A stretch of 64,000 nucleotides of DNA from Flavobacteriaceae bacterium (GTDB lineage: Bacteria; Bacteroidota; Bacteroidia; Flavobacteriales; Flavobacteriaceae), in assembly GCA_017852395.1 (NCBI GenBank), contig JAFMLE010000001.1:84475-148474 (forward strand), in the 5' to 3' direction. Under the pieces are notes generated by a model. It saw only the letters and a list, made by a program, of their open reading frames with translations. It was not told the DNA's origin and searched no databases. Numbering within the stretch: position 1 is the first letter of the stretch; every line of letters starts with the position of its first letter. Shown in pieces: positions 35,506 through 64,000 of this stretch. The translations under genes and the position numbers were made by a program.

Positions 35506-37413
35506 ATGTCCATTCATTCACTTGTTTACGATACCCCTGGAAAATTTCAAGAAACACGTTTCGAAAAAATCCACAACCTCACCTTTAGTTCTTCATCAGA
35601 AGCTTCCAAAATGGTGGCTGCAGAAATTGCTTCGGGGATTCGAAATTGTATCGACCGCCCCTATGTATTGGGATTAGCAACCGGATCATCTCCGATAGGC
35701 GTCTACCAAGAATTGGTACGACTTCATCGCGAGGAGGGATTGAGTTTTAAAAACGTGGTGACATTTAACCTAGACGAATATTATCCGATCGACGCCAAAG
35801 ACATCCGGAGCTACCACCATTTTATGCACATCCACTTGTTTGATCATATCGATATCCCTGCCGAGCAGATTCACATACCAAAGGGCAACATACCGATGGA
35901 AAAAGTTCGGGCCTTTTGTACGGAGTACGAAGAAACAATTAACGCCTATGGCGGATTGGATTTTCAATTGCTTGGTATTGGCAGGACAGCTCATATTGGG
36001 TTCAACGAACCCGGATCACATCAAAATTCGGTCACCCGTCTCATTACTTTAGATGCCATTACCCGATCCGATGCAGCAAATGATTTTAATGGGTTAGAAA
36101 ATGTTCCCAAAAAAGCCATAACCATGGGGGTGTCCAGTATCATGAAAGCCAAGCGTATTGTATTATTAGCTTGGGGACATAAAAAAGCACAAACGGTGGC
36201 ACGTACTATTGAAGGTGAAGTTTCTAGCAAAGCGCCGGCCACATTTTTACAGCACCATAAAAATACTACCATCATACTCGATGAAGAAGCCAGTAGTGAG
36301 TTAAAACGGTTTAGAACACCTTGGTTGGTTCGCGATTGCGAGTGGACAGATGATCTACGCAAACAAGCCATTGTTTGGCTGTGTAAAAAAGTGAATAAGT
36401 CCATATTGATGCTTACCCAAAGAGATTATAACGAGTACGGCTTGTCGGATTTATTAGCCACCATGGGGTCCGCTTATGAACTCAACATCTGGATGTTCAA
36501 TCAAATCCAAAAAACCATCACAGGTTGGCCTGGAGGCAAACCCCATCACTCGGATGAAAACCGCCCCGAGCGCTCCACACCTGCGGTCAAAAGGAGTATT
36601 ATTTTTAGCCCCCATCCCGATGATGATGTTATTTCAATGGGAGGTACTTTTGCCCGGCTAATTGATCAGGGTCATGAAGTGCATGTCGCTTATCAGACCT
36701 CTGGAAATATTGCTGTTTCGGACGAAGATGCGTTGCGCTATGTCGAAGTTGCATTGCGCATGGAACCCGATTCTAAAAAGTTTCAGGCACTCAAATCAGA
36801 ATTATTAGACACCAACAAAGCACCCATAGATAGCGAACAATTGCGATTGGTCAAAGGGACCATCCGCCGCAGCGAGTGTTTGGGAGCAGGACGTTTTTTA
36901 AAATTGCCCGTAGAACAGCTTCATTTTTTGGACCTCCCGTTCTATGAAACGGGTACGGTAAGAAAAAATCCACCCTCTCAAAAAGATGTTGACATTACCC
37001 TAGCACTTTTTGAAAAAATTAAACCCCATCAAATCTTTGCTGCTGGTGATTTGGCCGATCCTCATGGTACACACCGTACTTGCTTGGATGTATTGTTTGA
37101 AGCGCTAAAGCAAGCCAAAGATGAGTCCTACATGAAAGATTGCTGGGTATGGCTCTACCGAGGGGCTTGGCAAGAATGGGGCATCCATGAAATTCACATG
37201 GCCGTACCGATGAGCCCAGACCAGGTATTGCAAAAGCGAAATGCAATTTTGTTTCACCAATCTCAAAAAGACAAAGTGATGTTTCAAGGAGAAGATCAGC
37301 GTGAGTTTTGGGTCCGTGCCGAAGAGCGCAACCGAGATACCGCAAAAATCTACAATGCCCTTGGAATGGCCGAATATCAAGCTATAGAGGCGTTTAGACG
37401 TTATTTTTATTAA
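35506..37413 (+). CDS. nagB: Glucosamine-6-phosphate deaminase fused to a PIG-L/LmbE deacetylase-like domain
   Basis: 635 aa; NagB half (GLATGSSPIGVYQELVR, NLDEYYPID, HIGFNEPGS) plus LmbE half (FSPHPDDDVISMGGT, DPHGTHRTC). Confidence 0.92.
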   Translation: MSIHSLVYDTPGKFQETRFEKIHNLTFSSSSEASKMVAAEIASGIRNCIDRPYVLGLATGSSPIGVYQELVRLHREEGLSFKNVVTFNLDEYYPIDAKDIRSYHHFMHIHLFDHIDIPAEQIHIPKGNIPMEKVRAFCTEYEETINAYGGLDFQLLGIGRTAHIGFNEPGSHQNSVTRLITLDAITRSDAANDFNGLENVPKKAITMGVSSIMKAKRIVLLAWGHKKAQTVARTIEGEVSSKAPATFLQHHKNTTIILDEEASSELKRFRTPWLVRDCEWTDDLRKQAIVWLCKKVNKSILMLTQRDYNEYGLSDLLATMGSAYELNIWMFNQIQKTITGWPGGKPHHSDENRPERSTPAVKRSIIFSPHPDDDVISMGGTFARLIDQGHEVHVAYQTSGNIAVSDEDALRYVEVALRMEPDSKKFQALKSELLDTNKAPIDSEQLRLVKGTIRRSECLGAGRFLKLPVEQLHFLDLPFYETGTVRKNPPSQKDVDITLALFEKIKPHQIFAAGDLADPHGTHRTCLDVLFEALKQAKDESYMKDCWVWLYRGAWQEWGIHEIHMAVPMSPDQVLQKRNAILFHQSQKDKVMFQGEDQREFWVRAEERNRDTAKIYNALGMAEYQAIEAFRRYFY

Positions 37414-37479: not shown

Positions 37480-38418
37480 ATGAGGATTTTGGTATTATTT
37501 TCTCTCATATTCTTCTGTTTCAACTGTTCTACCGAACCCAAAAGCAGCACCGTTGAACCTAAGGAGATCAGCACATTGGCACAATGGTTAGCAATTGATT
37601 TTAAGGACAGGCCCCCTCTGGAGGAAACCCCATTTGCAGATACACCACTATCAAAAGCCGAGGCAAACCGTGCCATGGAAGAACTCATAGACGATTATCA
37701 AAAGACATTTGATGCGTCCTATGGCAACCAATGGACAAGGCGGGTTTTGGAACTGGGCAATTTGCAAATGCCCTTTTATTATAAACGATTTGGCACTCCG
37801 CCATCAGATGGAAGCGCATTGTATATTTCGTTACATGGAGGAGGAGGTACTACTGCAGATGTAAATGATCAACAATACAACAATCAGAAAAATTTATACG
37901 ATCAGACCATGCTTGGTCTAGAAGGGATTATTGAGCAATTTGAACCTCAAAATATGGTTACCTATTTTGAAAACCAATTGATTATTGCCGAGGTCCATGC
38001 ACGTGCTGGAAATACAACCCAAGCCTTGACGGCCTTGAATCAGGTGCGTACATGGCTCAATAATGGGGGGCAACTTAATGCTAATTTTTCTGGAGAAACC
38101 TACCTGTATGCTCCTTTTATAGCAGCTGATTTTGAAAACGGAGGCATCGAAAACCAAGACAATATTTCGGCTCAAAAAGCCCTTTTAAGAGAAATCATAG
38201 AAGAGCGCTACGTATCGGGTTTTGGTATGCACATTTCGTTTAATGATGCGCGCAGACTACGCAAAGCCGACTCGGATATTTCGGTGCCTTTTGTAATGAA
38301 AAACAATTCGAGTACACAACGTGCCGAACGTTTGCCCTATGCTTATGATGAGTTGAATTCAAATGAAAATGCTCCCGAGGATCCAGGTATTTTTCAAAAA
38401 ACACCGGTCAATCAATAA
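37480..38418 (+). CDS. Apparent chimeric lipoprotein: esterase-like N-terminus joined to SusD/RagB-like C-terminus
   Basis: 312 aa, signal peptide with FNC lipobox; residues ~85-140 resemble alpha/beta-hydrolase (ALYISLHGGGGTTADVNDQQYNNQKNLY), residues ~148-312 resemble SusD C-terminus (MVTYFENQLIIAEVHARAGNTTQALTALNQVR...KALLREIIEERYVSGFGMHISFNDARRLRK...AYDELNSNENAP). Confidence 0.75.
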   Translation: MRILVLFSLIFFCFNCSTEPKSSTVEPKEISTLAQWLAIDFKDRPPLEETPFADTPLSKAEANRAMEELIDDYQKTFDASYGNQWTRRVLELGNLQMPFYYKRFGTPPSDGSALYISLHGGGGTTADVNDQQYNNQKNLYDQTMLGLEGIIEQFEPQNMVTYFENQLIIAEVHARAGNTTQALTALNQVRTWLNNGGQLNANFSGETYLYAPFIAADFENGGIENQDNISAQKALLREIIEERYVSGFGMHISFNDARRLRKADSDISVPFVMKNNSSTQRAERLPYAYDELNSNENAPEDPGIFQKTPVNQ

Positions 38419-38437: not shown

Positions 38438-38462
38438 AAAAGGGGGCGCTGCCCCCTTTTTT
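38438..38462 (+). terminator. Rho-independent terminator after the chimeric ORF
   Basis: AGGGGGC-GCT-GCCCCCT followed by a T-run. Confidence 0.88.
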
Positions 38463-38533
38463 ATCTAAAGAACCAAAAGGTTATTTGGAAGCTCTTCGAA
38501 GATTCATTAGCTTCGGTGTACTATTTGTATTTG

Positions 38534-38803
38534 ATGGATTTTAAAAAACTACAGTTGCCCCTTTTGTTTTGCTTGACCTTAGGTTTGGCACCCTACACCC
38601 CCGAGCCACATATATTAGGAAAGGTTCGTTGGTTGCTCGGAGGCGCCAACGGTATGCAAGCTCTTGACTGGTTTGATCTTCTCATGCACGGCTTCCCTTG
38701 GCTCTATCTTTTATACGTTATTACTAAGGGTGTAAAACCCAATAAAACACTGACTTTTTTGTGCTTTTTTCTTTTTGGTTGCTGCCTTTGGGTCAATTTA
38801 TGA
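38534..38803 (+). CDS. Small conserved membrane protein, unknown function
   Basis: In frame within ORF 38363..38803; ATG 38534 gives MDFKKLQLPLLFCLTLGLAPYTPEPHILGKVRWLLGGANGMQALDWFDLLMHGFPWLYLL... Confidence 0.7.
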   Translation: MDFKKLQLPLLFCLTLGLAPYTPEPHILGKVRWLLGGANGMQALDWFDLLMHGFPWLYLLYVITKGVKPNKTLTFLCFFLFGCCLWVNL

Positions 38804-58963: not shown

Positions 58964-59884
58964 ATGGATCAATCTGCCTCGCAATGGATCAAGAAGCAAG
59001 CCCAAGAATTGGGGTTTCTTTCTTGTGGAATTTCCCAAGCCGCATTTCTAGAAACCGAGGCACCGCGTTTGGAGCAATGGCTCAAAAATGGACATCACGG
59101 CGCCATGGGCTATATGGAGCGTCATTTTGACAAGCGATTGGATCCCAGAAAATTAGTGCCTGGTGCACAAAGTGTTATCTCCTTGTTGTTCAATTATTAT
59201 ACCTCAAAAACACAAAAGGATGCCGAGGCTCCGAAAATTTCTAAATATGCCTACGGCACCGATTACCATTTTGTTTTAAAGCAAAAGCTAAAAACTTTTT
59301 TTCAGCTCATGCAAAAACAATTTGGCGCAATTGAGGGGCGTGTTTTTGTCGATTCGGCACCCGTGATGGACAAAGCGTGGGCCGTCAAAAGTGGCTTAGG
59401 GTGGTTGGGCAAAAATACCAATGTGATCGCTCCAAGAGAAGGGTCATTTTTTTTTATTTGTGAGATAATAACCGATTTAGAATTGGACTATGATGCTCCA
59501 ATGACTGATCATTGTGGCACCTGCACAGCCTGTATCGATGCCTGTCCAACGGAGGCACTAACACCCTATCAGATCGATGGGAGCAAGTGCATATCTTATT
59601 TTACAATTGAGCTTAAAGAGGCCCTGCCGGACTCCATAAAAGGGAAAATGGACAATTGGATGTTTGGATGTGATGTCTGCCAAACCGTCTGCCCTTGGAA
59701 CCGTTTTTCAAAGTCCCATAATGAGCCCCAATTTGAGCCGCACCCCGACTTATTAGAAATGCGTGCTCAAGATTGGGAAGAGTTGACACAAGAAACCTTT
59801 AAAACGGTTTTTAAATCAAGTGCTGTAAAGCGAACCAAATTTGAAGGATTAAAAAGAAACATTTCTTTTTTAAAACACGTTTAA
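58964..59884 (+). CDS. queG: Epoxyqueuosine reductase
   Basis: ORF track 58955; ATG 58964 preferred; [16 protein letters not shown] Fe-S motif, [27 protein letters not shown]. Confidence 0.96.
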
Positions 59885-60894
59885 GAACTCTCTCGCTTTA
59901 TCAATGATGTCTTAATAACCTTCGTGTTATAGTTGATGTTTTCCTTTGCTTTCAACGCTTTTAGGTCTTTTAAAAATTGTGTAAAAATAGCTTTCCCCAT
60001 TTTTTTTCCAGGCTGGTTGATCGTCGTTAGTGAGGGGCTGGTTAAAGCAGTAAGATGCCAATTGCTAAATCCCACAACGCCAACTTGATCAGGGATTCTA
60101 ATTTTTTGTTCCTTGAGAAATTTTATCGCACCAAGGGCTGTCATATCGGTATGTGCAAAAATGCCATCGATATCTGGATGTCGTGCCCATAATTTTTTTG
60201 CAGCTTCATATCCTTGATTTTCATTTCCCTTTTCACAGATTTCCACATAATCGGATTGATATTCGATGCCATTTTTCTCAAGGGTTTTCCGATAGCCAAT
60301 AAAGCGGTCTATGGCCACTTGTGGTAAAAGCCCACCACGGAGATGCGCAATTTTCTTTTTTCCGCTATCGATTAGATGTTGAACGGCTTGGGAGGCTGCC
60401 CCTCGATCATTGATCACAATTTTGGACGATTTTGCAATTTTTGATACCCGGTCATATTGGATCAAAACGGTGCCGCTTTTCCAAATTTCTTCCAAATGCG
60501 AAACATCATGGCTGTCTTGAGCCAAGGACAGAAAAATACCGTCAACTTTTTGTTTTAACAGGCGTCGGATATGAATTTTTTCCAATTCATAACTGTTGGA
60601 TTTTAGGACGATGACCAAATAGTTGTGTTCTTCGGCTTTTTCGATAATGCCCTGAAGCAACATGCTGAAGAAATAGTGCGCCAGTTTGGGAATAATAATG
60701 CCGACGATTTTCGATTCTTGTTTTCTTAAAGAAGTAGCAAAAGTATTTGGGGTAAAGTCAATCGATTGGGCATAATCTAAGACCTTTTTTCGGGTAGCCG
60801 CACTGATGTCCGGATAATTGTTTAAGGCCTTAGACACCGTTGTTATCGAAATATTTAGTGCCTCGGCGAGGTCCTTAAGGGTTTTTGTTTTCAT
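59881..60894 (-). CDS. LacI family transcriptional regulator
   Basis: 337 aa; [30 protein letters not shown], periplasmic-binding-like domain. Confidence 0.95.
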
Positions 60895-60936
60895 AATTCT
60901 TTATTCATAGCCCTTTAAAATTATGAAAAAATCATT

Positions 60937-60952
60937 TCGAAAACGTTTTCGA
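60937..60952. promoter_or_regulatory. Perfect 16-bp palindrome TCGAAAACGTTTTCGA, candidate LacI-family operator
   Basis: Exact self-reverse-complement in the divergent lacI/susC intergenic region. Confidence 0.75.
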
Positions 60953-61057
60953 CATCAAATAAATTATTTAATCCACCATGTGAAATTTATGTTAAAGAAT
61001 ATTTTGTAAAATTGTAATTAAGGATTAGAAAATCACAATTAACTTAAACAATCTAGA

Positions 61058-64000
61058 ATGAAAAAAAATCTATTATCATCATTCTTTGCTATGGCATTTA
61101 TGTTCATTGCACAAGGGATGTATGCACAAACAGTCAATGGTACTGTTTCGAGTGAAGATGGACCTCTTCCTGGAGCTTCAATAGTAGTGAAGGGATCAGG
61201 AGTAGGAACGACTACAGATTTTGACGGAAATTTTGCCATTGAGGCAGCCTCAGGAGATGTTCTTGTAGTTTCATTCGTCGGTTTTTCTTCTCAAGAAGTT
61301 ACCGTTTCTGGTCAAGACCAGATTACTGTATTTCTTGAGCCCGATAATGAACTAGAGGAAGTAGTTGTAACTGGATATGGTTCACAGCGAGAGAAGGAAA
61401 TTACAGCGTCTGTTGTAAAGGTAGAAGCAGAAGACTTTAACCAAGGAGCAATCAGTGACGCCTCTCAATTATTACAAGGTAAAGTAGCGGGACTTCAGAT
61501 TTATAATCGAGGAGGAAACCCCAATGCTGCTGCTACTATTCGATTAAGAGGTATTTCTACAGTGGGTGCAAACACCCAGCCTCTTATTGTTATTGACGGT
61601 GTAATTGGTGCATCTCTTGCTAACGTAGATCCATCTGATATTGAGACCATCAACGTTTTGAAAGACGGTTCTGCTGCTGCAGTATATGGATCTCGTGGAT
61701 CTTCTGGGGTAATCTTAGTAACTACAAAATCGGGTAGAGAAGGTAGAATTTCACTTACCTACAACGGACAAGTTGGTGTTACTGAAGCCTTAAACACAGT
61801 AGACATTATGACTGCAGATGAGTTTAGAGCACAGCCTGGAGCCACCGACCTTGGTGCCTCTACAGATTGGGTTGGTGCGGTTACTCGTCAGGCCGTTACA
61901 CGTATCCATAACATAGCTGCTGCTGGTGGTTCTGGAGATACATCATACCGTATTTCTGCCAACTTCCGCGATGTAGAAGGAGTACTTATCAGTTCTGACT
62001 TTTCTCAGTTCAACACCCGTATGAACTTTTCTACAAAAGCACTTAACGACAAATTGACGATCAATGTAAACACAGCATTTACTCGTAGAGAGCAAAACAA
62101 CGGTTCTATGGAATCTTTGAAGTATGCTGTATTGTATAACCCAACTGCTCCGATTTATGCTGCTGACTACACGCTTGGCGCATTCAATGGTGATCAGTTT
62201 GGAGGTTATTTTGAAACCTTAGGTTTGTTTGACAGCTACAACCCTGTTTCTATTGCGAAGCAGCAATTGAATCAAGGAAATAAGTCTGAGCTTAACTATA
62301 GCGTTAATGCTGAATATAGCGTAACAGAAAACCTTTCAGTTAACCTTAACGCTGCGAGCCAAGTAAGCAAGTATTCAAACAAATTGTATAACCCAACAAC
62401 CTTGTACCGTGGAGGTAACGCTACCTCACCTATTCGCAAAGGTTTGGCAGAGTTCTATGATCAGACATTTAGCTTTAAGCTGTCTGAAATCTATGGACGT
62501 TACACTACCGAATTTGGTAACACAAGCATGGTATTGACTGCAGGATACTCGTATCAGCAACAAAATTTTGAAGACCACTTTCTATCTTTAGGTGATTTCC
62601 CAAATGAAGCTGCCGCAGGAATCGACTTCATAAATGCGATTGAGTATTCTCAAGACTTATTAAACGCTGGATTTATTGGAGCAAACTCCAATGCGACTCC
62701 AGACGAAAAAATCATCGCATTCTTTGGAAGAGCTAACGTAACCATCGACGACGGAATTTTCATCAACGCTTCTTTACGTAGAGAAGGTTCTACAAAGCTT
62801 GGTGCCGAAAACCAGTGGGGGGTATTCCCAGCCGTTGGTTTGGGGGTTGACCTCAATAAATATTTAAGTTTAGGGATTGATAAATTTAAAGTGCGCTTAG
62901 GATACGGTGTAACAGGGGCACTTCCTGGTCCAAACGGTCTATCTCAGCAAATCCGAGGATTTACCTATGACGGTGGTCAAGGTGGTGGATCATCCTCACC
63001 TTCTCGTGATGCGAACCCAGATTTGAAATGGGAAGAAAAAGCCGAGACCAACTTAGGTTTCGAATTTAGAAAAGGTAAGTTAGACGCTACACTTGATTTA
63101 TATTCTCGTGATATTTCTGACTTCATCTTACAGCGAAGTGTGGACGTAGCCGTATATCCAACAGGTACACGTTTTGAAAATGCTGGTAAATTAAATACCA
63201 AAGGAGTTGAATTGGCGTTAAACTATCAAGTTAATGATGCTTACAACACCGGCTTAGTACTATCTACTTACAAAACGACCCTAGAAGAGTACGTTCTTGA
63301 AGGTGGTGAAATGCGTGCTAACCTAGGAGCTCCTGGTCAAAACGCGACTGCGGTTATCAAAGTAGCTCAAGGTCAAGAAATTGGTCAGATTTGGGGCCCT
63401 GTTTTCGAAGGTGTAAATGCTGACGGAACAGCAATCTTGTCCGACATCAATGGCGATGGTCAATTGGTAGTAGGTCAAGACAAAGCCTTGGACGAAAATG
63501 TTGACTTTACAGAACTTGGTAATGGTATTCCTGATCTCGAATTGGGTTGGACCAACCAAATCACTTTTGGTGACTGGTCAATCAATGCTTTCTTTAGAGG
63601 TGCATTTGGACACAGTTTGGTAAATACTTTCCGTGCGTTCTACGAGCCTAGAATTTCTACTCAAGGTTCTTATAACTACGTAAACACTGAACTTGCTCCT
63701 GCAGGCCTTACTCAAGCACGCTTTAGCTCATTGTATGTAGAAAAAGCAGACTTCTTTAAGTTAGACAACCTAACAGTAACTCGAAACATTGATGCAAGCA
63801 GCATCAGTGGCATTGATGCAATTCAAGTTTCATTGAATGCGCAAAACCCTATTGTGATTACTAATTATACTGGACTTGATCCAGAGCCATCATTGGTGGA
63901 TATAGGTGAGGAAGGTAACGGTGCTGATGTACTTTCTCCTGGTATGGACAGAAGACAAAGTTATTTTGCCTCACGTTCTTTTACATTAGGTCTTAATATC
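61058..64000 (+). CDS. SusC/RagA family TonB-linked outer-membrane receptor, partial (C-terminus beyond window)
   Basis: Open frame from ATG 61058: MKKNLLSSFFAMAFMFIAQGMYAQTVNGTVSSEDGPLPGASIVVKGSGVGTTTDFDGNFAI...EEVVVTGYG...; absent from ORF track because no stop in window. Confidence 0.96.
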   Translation, partial: MKKNLLSSFFAMAFMFIAQGMYAQTVNGTVSSEDGPLPGASIVVKGSGVGTTTDFDGNFAIEAASGDVLVVSFVGFSSQEVTVSGQDQITVFLEPDNELEEVVVTGYGSQREKEITASVVKVEAEDFNQGAISDASQLLQGKVAGLQIYNRGGNPNAAATIRLRGISTVGANTQPLIVIDGVIGASLANVDPSDIETINVLKDGSAAAVYGSRGSSGVILVTTKSGREGRISLTYNGQVGVTEALNTVDIMTADEFRAQPGATDLGASTDWVGAVTRQAVTRIHNIAAAGGSGDTSYRISANFRDVEGVLISSDFSQFNTRMNFSTKALNDKLTINVNTAFTRREQNNGSMESLKYAVLYNPTAPIYAADYTLGAFNGDQFGGYFETLGLFDSYNPVSIAKQQLNQGNKSELNYSVNAEYSVTENLSVNLNAASQVSKYSNKLYNPTTLYRGGNATSPIRKGLAEFYDQTFSFKLSEIYGRYTTEFGNTSMVLTAGYSYQQQNFEDHFLSLGDFPNEAAAGIDFINAIEYSQDLLNAGFIGANSNATPDEKIIAFFGRANVTIDDGIFINASLRREGSTKLGAENQWGVFPAVGLGVDLNKYLSLGIDKFKVRLGYGVTGALPGPNGLSQQIRGFTYDGGQGGGSSSPSRDANPDLKWEEKAETNLGFEFRKGKLDATLDLYSRDISDFILQRSVDVAVYPTGTRFENAGKLNTKGVELALNYQVNDAYNTGLVLSTYKTTLEEYVLEGGEMRANLGAPGQNATAVIKVAQGQEIGQIWGPVFEGVNADGTAILSDINGDGQLVVGQDKALDENVDFTELGNGIPDLELGWTNQITFGDWSINAFFRGAFGHSLVNTFRAFYEPRISTQGSYNYVNTELAPAGLTQARFSSLYVEKADFFKLDNLTVTRNIDASSISGIDAIQVSLNAQNPIVITNYTGLDPEPSLVDIGEEGNGADVLSPGMDRRQSYFASRSFTLGLNI

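Follow-up and report, generated by a model that had tools for sequence, protein, structure and literature searches.

A hydrolase–SusD in-frame fusion in a reduced flavobacterial genome, probably left behind by the loss of uptake genes

The open reading frame at 37480-38418 on the forward strand is, as homology indicates, made up of parts of two protein families. It is probably a genuine chromosomal in-frame deletion fusion, and most likely a recent, non-functional leftover of uptake-gene loss. In the 64-kb window (the whole stretch of 64,000 nucleotides that was analysed), the locus forms a single open frame with an ATG start, a TAA stop and a product of 312 aa (P0001), which includes the residue stretch YDQTMLGLEGIIEQFEPQNM; no stops were found across the 312 codons. 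The N-terminus is lipobox-like by sequence reading (MRILVLFSLIFFCFNC|S); the original prediction had described a single uninterrupted lipoprotein ORF. The chimeric nature proposed there was also observed, as residues 1-148 matched hydrolases only and residues 150-312 matched SusD proteins only.

The N-terminal half (37480..37923, forward strand) carries a putative lipoprotein signal and, as far as E148, the N-terminal part of an α/β-hydrolase (esterase). Over residues 1-148, which take in the HGGGG stretch, identity to the N-terminus of six intact hydrolases (L046-L049, L103, L104) was 39-53%. These relatives are α/β-hydrolase lipoproteins of ∼410-436 aa (family ∼422 aa), for example that of Maribacter antarcticus (L047), and the hydrolase is present in few genomes of the family. 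The half retained 37 of the 40 columns that are invariant among the six hydrolases, comparably to the hydrolases themselves. The nearest named models of the relatives were the PHB-depolymerase-like esterases TIGR01840 and NF050058, both below cut-off, and the hydrolase parent may be described as a PHB-depolymerase-like esterase below the curated cut-offs. A hydrolase signature over the first ∼140 residues had been claimed; it was borne out and its extent was set at residues 1-148, with the type given by these sub-cut-off models. Unlike the intact proteins, the fusion stops ahead of the nucleophile elbow. The GYSAGGDG motif of the relatives lies 3' of the homologous part, past the join, so that the G-x-S-x-G elbow and the later catalytic residues are missing from the fusion protein. 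At one of the hydrolase loci (L046:10850-12449), a GH20-like hexosaminidase downstream of the intact hydrolase is apparently split into two overlapping frames.

The C-terminal half (37927..38418, forward strand) comprises the C-terminal third of a SusD-family protein and the stop codon. Residues 150-312 were 61-66% identical to the C-terminal ∼165 residues of full-length SusD outer-membrane lipoproteins of ∼476-485 aa from marine Flavobacteriaceae. The half begins at about residue 311-321 of these relatives; their first ∼310 residues, and with them the N-terminal two thirds of the SusD fold, are absent. The loss of both functional cores, as earlier proposed, is therefore seen in the missing GYSAGGDG motif and the missing first two thirds of SusD. 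The domain search was run on the separate halves, as the original prediction had recommended, and neither half nor the whole fusion matched Pfam or NCBIfam above the curated cut-offs. PF07980 scored 14.4 bits on the whole fusion and 16.7 bits on the C-terminal half, below its cut-off of 23.1, and one full-length SusD homologue that was tested matched PF12771 (SusD-like_2) and PF12741 (SusD-like) in its N-terminal part. The predicted SusD/RagB C-terminus is thus a SusD C-terminal third, with the type narrowed to SusD-like_2/SusD-like by the full-length homologue. A PDB sequence search with the fusion protein returned no match.

In the SusD relatives, susC comes immediately before susD and a γ-glutamyltranspeptidase gene often comes after it, whereas the fusion lacks a SusC partner and the gene directly upstream of it is nagB-like. 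The absence of an adjacent susC had been noted before, and the window contains a single SusC, which starts at 61058. This SusC-like receptor, which reaches the window end, stands beside a LacI-type regulator (59881-63886), and an intact SusD_RagB protein is encoded just past the window end (G000:C3:149403). In marine Flavobacteriaceae, the SusCD family represented by L020:6517-8163 is often trailed by γ-glutamyltranspeptidase, and its substrate may on this basis be a peptide or a glutathione-type compound instead of a glycan.

In the joint alignment, the per-residue support flipped at Gly149: up to E148 only hydrolases supported the sequence, and from I150 onwards only SusD proteins did. The codon of Gly149 (GGG, 37924..37926, forward strand) is the sole position conserved in both parent families, and two unrelated parents thus switch within one codon. 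The join had been placed at 37895-37925; the region held, and it was refined to codon 149 at the very end of that range. When the DNA of the parent homologues (six hydrolases against 17 susD genes, in the register of the alignment) was compared at the join, the longest exact match was 7 bases and the mean about 3. Such limited sharing would be typical of illegitimate, microhomology-scale joining.

The distribution of the matches supported the same division. In the GTDB genome scan, four loci matched the query only up to residue 150 and the remaining loci only from about residue 146-159 on, with no locus matching both parts. Of the 399 family genomes, 36 matched the fusion protein. Neither the GTDB scan nor the 399 genomes contained the fusion in another genome, including the close relatives in which the original prediction had proposed to look for it, or a relative spanning residues 1-312, a kind of match that a single family covering both segments end to end would give. 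The SusD-side frames of the family measured 440-504 aa and were short only in the genome of the chimera (G000) and in a sister species (G002), aside from the frame cut by a contig end in G112. The literature searches returned no paper on a SusD-hydrolase fusion.

Sequence constraint and composition were then considered for the two halves. Of the 73 columns that do not vary in 26 relatives, the C-terminal half kept 68, and its relative-rate counts against four outgroups were not raised. A reading of the five broken columns as relaxed selection was rejected, given that the half branches outside the other SusD proteins and its rates are not raised. The loss of conserved positions in either half is no more than its branch explains. 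Codon adaptation was 0.685 for the N-terminal half and 0.774 for the C-terminal half, compared with a mean of 0.753 (sd 0.022) for 480-bp pieces of window genes; this gap fits two halves with separate histories. The AlphaFold2 model of the chimera reached a mean pLDDT of 49.8, and an intact SusD control with a shallow, 4-row alignment was equally poor (44.1); the model is therefore uninformative and no structural conclusion was drawn.

The own genome, G000, is a draft assembly of 1.75 Mb in 33 contigs with a completeness of 86%. Within this assembly, no second copy of either half, no remaining part of the hydrolase with its catalytic residues and no close SusC were found; the intact parental genes that the original prediction had advised looking for elsewhere in the genome were thus not recovered from the 86%-complete assembly. 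The best SusC of G000 was 33% identical to the L020 SusC, compared with 73% for a SusC relic in G002. Directly upstream of the chimera, on the same strand, lies the nagB/PIG-L-type gene (35506..37413, by Pfam/NCBIfam), which is glucosamine-6-phosphate deaminase-like (NF002557). Downstream of the ORF, a GC-rich hairpin with a T tail (38438..38463, forward strand; region fold -19.8 kcal/mol, z -2.9) is the probable terminator of the nagB-chimera unit. The hairpin was missing from the list of the mechanical scan, probably as a result of its A/T run pairing into the stem. A gene for a small membrane protein lies further on, near 38533-38803. As this strong hairpin still closes the unit, a nagB-chimera transcript may be made.

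The contig is syntenic with two sister species on both sides of the join. In G002, the flanks of the chimera site are conserved (77-79% DNA identity), and a gap of ∼140 bp, devoid of the chimera, separates the nagB-like gene from the conserved block that follows. At the corresponding place, G001 has neither the nagB-like gene nor the chimera; in that species the nagB/PIG-L fusion gene sits elsewhere, with a LacI regulator as its neighbour and another susCD pair at a distance of a few kb.

G002 also carries a short relic of a susCD pair on contig 158 (L065:10836-11069). It is a 77-aa frame in which a segment of the SusC plug is in frame with the last ∼31 residues of SusD, flanked by genes for a D-Ala-D-Ala dipeptidase and an SLC13-type transporter. 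At its join, the susC and susD genes of relatives have a short run in common, which in L023 is exact over 8 bp (GAGCGTAT). Both G000 and G001 are empty at this site, and the tail of the relic is 94% identical to L020 and 78% to the chimera. Because of its different SusD sublineage and other site, the relic represents a separate event, an analogy to the chimera and not the same event. Two further candidate relics were rejected: an N-terminally truncated SusC in L023 was caused by a 100-N scaffold gap, and a SusC-like match on C11 of G001 proved to be a short protein with the plug domain.

In the preferred reading, the reduced genome would have lost the stretch separating a hydrolase lipoprotein gene from a susD gene, with the break joining hydrolase codon 148 to susD through the common glycine codon. 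The hydrolase side would supply the lipoprotein signal, and the product may be exported. With no catalytic part, no SusC partner and only the smaller part of the SusD fold, the product is most likely non-functional, at most an inert lipoprotein. Hydrolase and susCD genes were not seen side by side in the flanks of the six hydrolase loci and of the susD loci that were inspected, nor was the ancestral order of the parents found in a relative within the fetched flanks. Of the earlier claim that a deletion had fused two genes, the in-frame chimera is observed; given that the pre-deletion gene order was not found, we infer the simple deletion, as we do the recency and the lack of function. A rearrangement beyond one deletion, such as illegitimate recombination that placed a susD 3' fragment next to a truncated hydrolase gene or inside it, would suit the absence of relatives with both genes together, the nearly empty intergenic place in G002, the different placing of nagB in G001, and the G002 relic at a site that is empty in the other two species. 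It would require more events than a single deletion, and inspection by eye of the ORFs surrounding the segment revealed no transposase, integrase or repeat; we hold it to be unlikely.

An assembly or consensus artefact, in which metagenome assembly would have merged two genuine genes, of a single organism or of two, had been named as the alternative. The genome is a fragmented draft, and the missing parts could sit in its absent 14%. Typical assembler k-mers are far longer than 7 bases, however, and the few exact bases shared at the join make a graph mis-join unlikely; the synteny on both sides and the in-frame join (a 1 in 3 chance) argue in the same direction, and an artefact is thus quite unlikely. 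The original prediction had left a choice between an exported novel protein and a translated remnant, and the remnant is graded as the likelier. A new selected surface lipoprotein would use the hydrolase N-terminus as export signal and scaffold, and the helical C-terminus of SusD as a binding or interaction module. The intact 312-codon frame is also what selection would give, and together with the lipobox-like start, the unaccelerated evolution of both halves and the genome-typical codon usage of the C-terminal half it speaks for such a protein. Both functional cores and the SusC are gone, however, and the fusion was found in one species only. A recent join would look undecayed too, and the undecayed halves fit a recent join or a retained function alike, which one species cannot separate. 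A selected lipoprotein is accordingly improbable, and still less probable is a newborn gene, created by the deletion and expressed in the nagB transcription unit, for a selected outer-surface lipoprotein with a hydrolase-derived part and a SusD-derived helical module.

The preferred reading, a deletion fusion left by uptake-gene loss, has a setting in the reduction of marine genomes. The closest known counterparts are gene fusions that arose by deletion and truncated pseudogenes of shrinking genomes. According to one report, polysaccharide loci are narrowed in streamlined marine Bacteroidetes, with PULs down to a single locus, for example in Ca. Winogradskyella atlantica (PMC9723794). The loss of uptake genes in the reduced genome of the chimera is in line with that report, as nutrient-uptake genes are lost from a small genome in both cases; the report describes PUL reduction, whereas the chimera is a readable in-frame junction. 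The chimera does not reveal a new mechanism; it offers a junction that can be read cleanly, probably left where a flavobacterium with a reduced genome lost genes for nutrient uptake. Together with the G002 relic, it suggests that short-homology deletions can remove uptake loci and leave behind ORFs that stay in frame, are possibly exported and may be miscalled as SusD or esterase by annotation.
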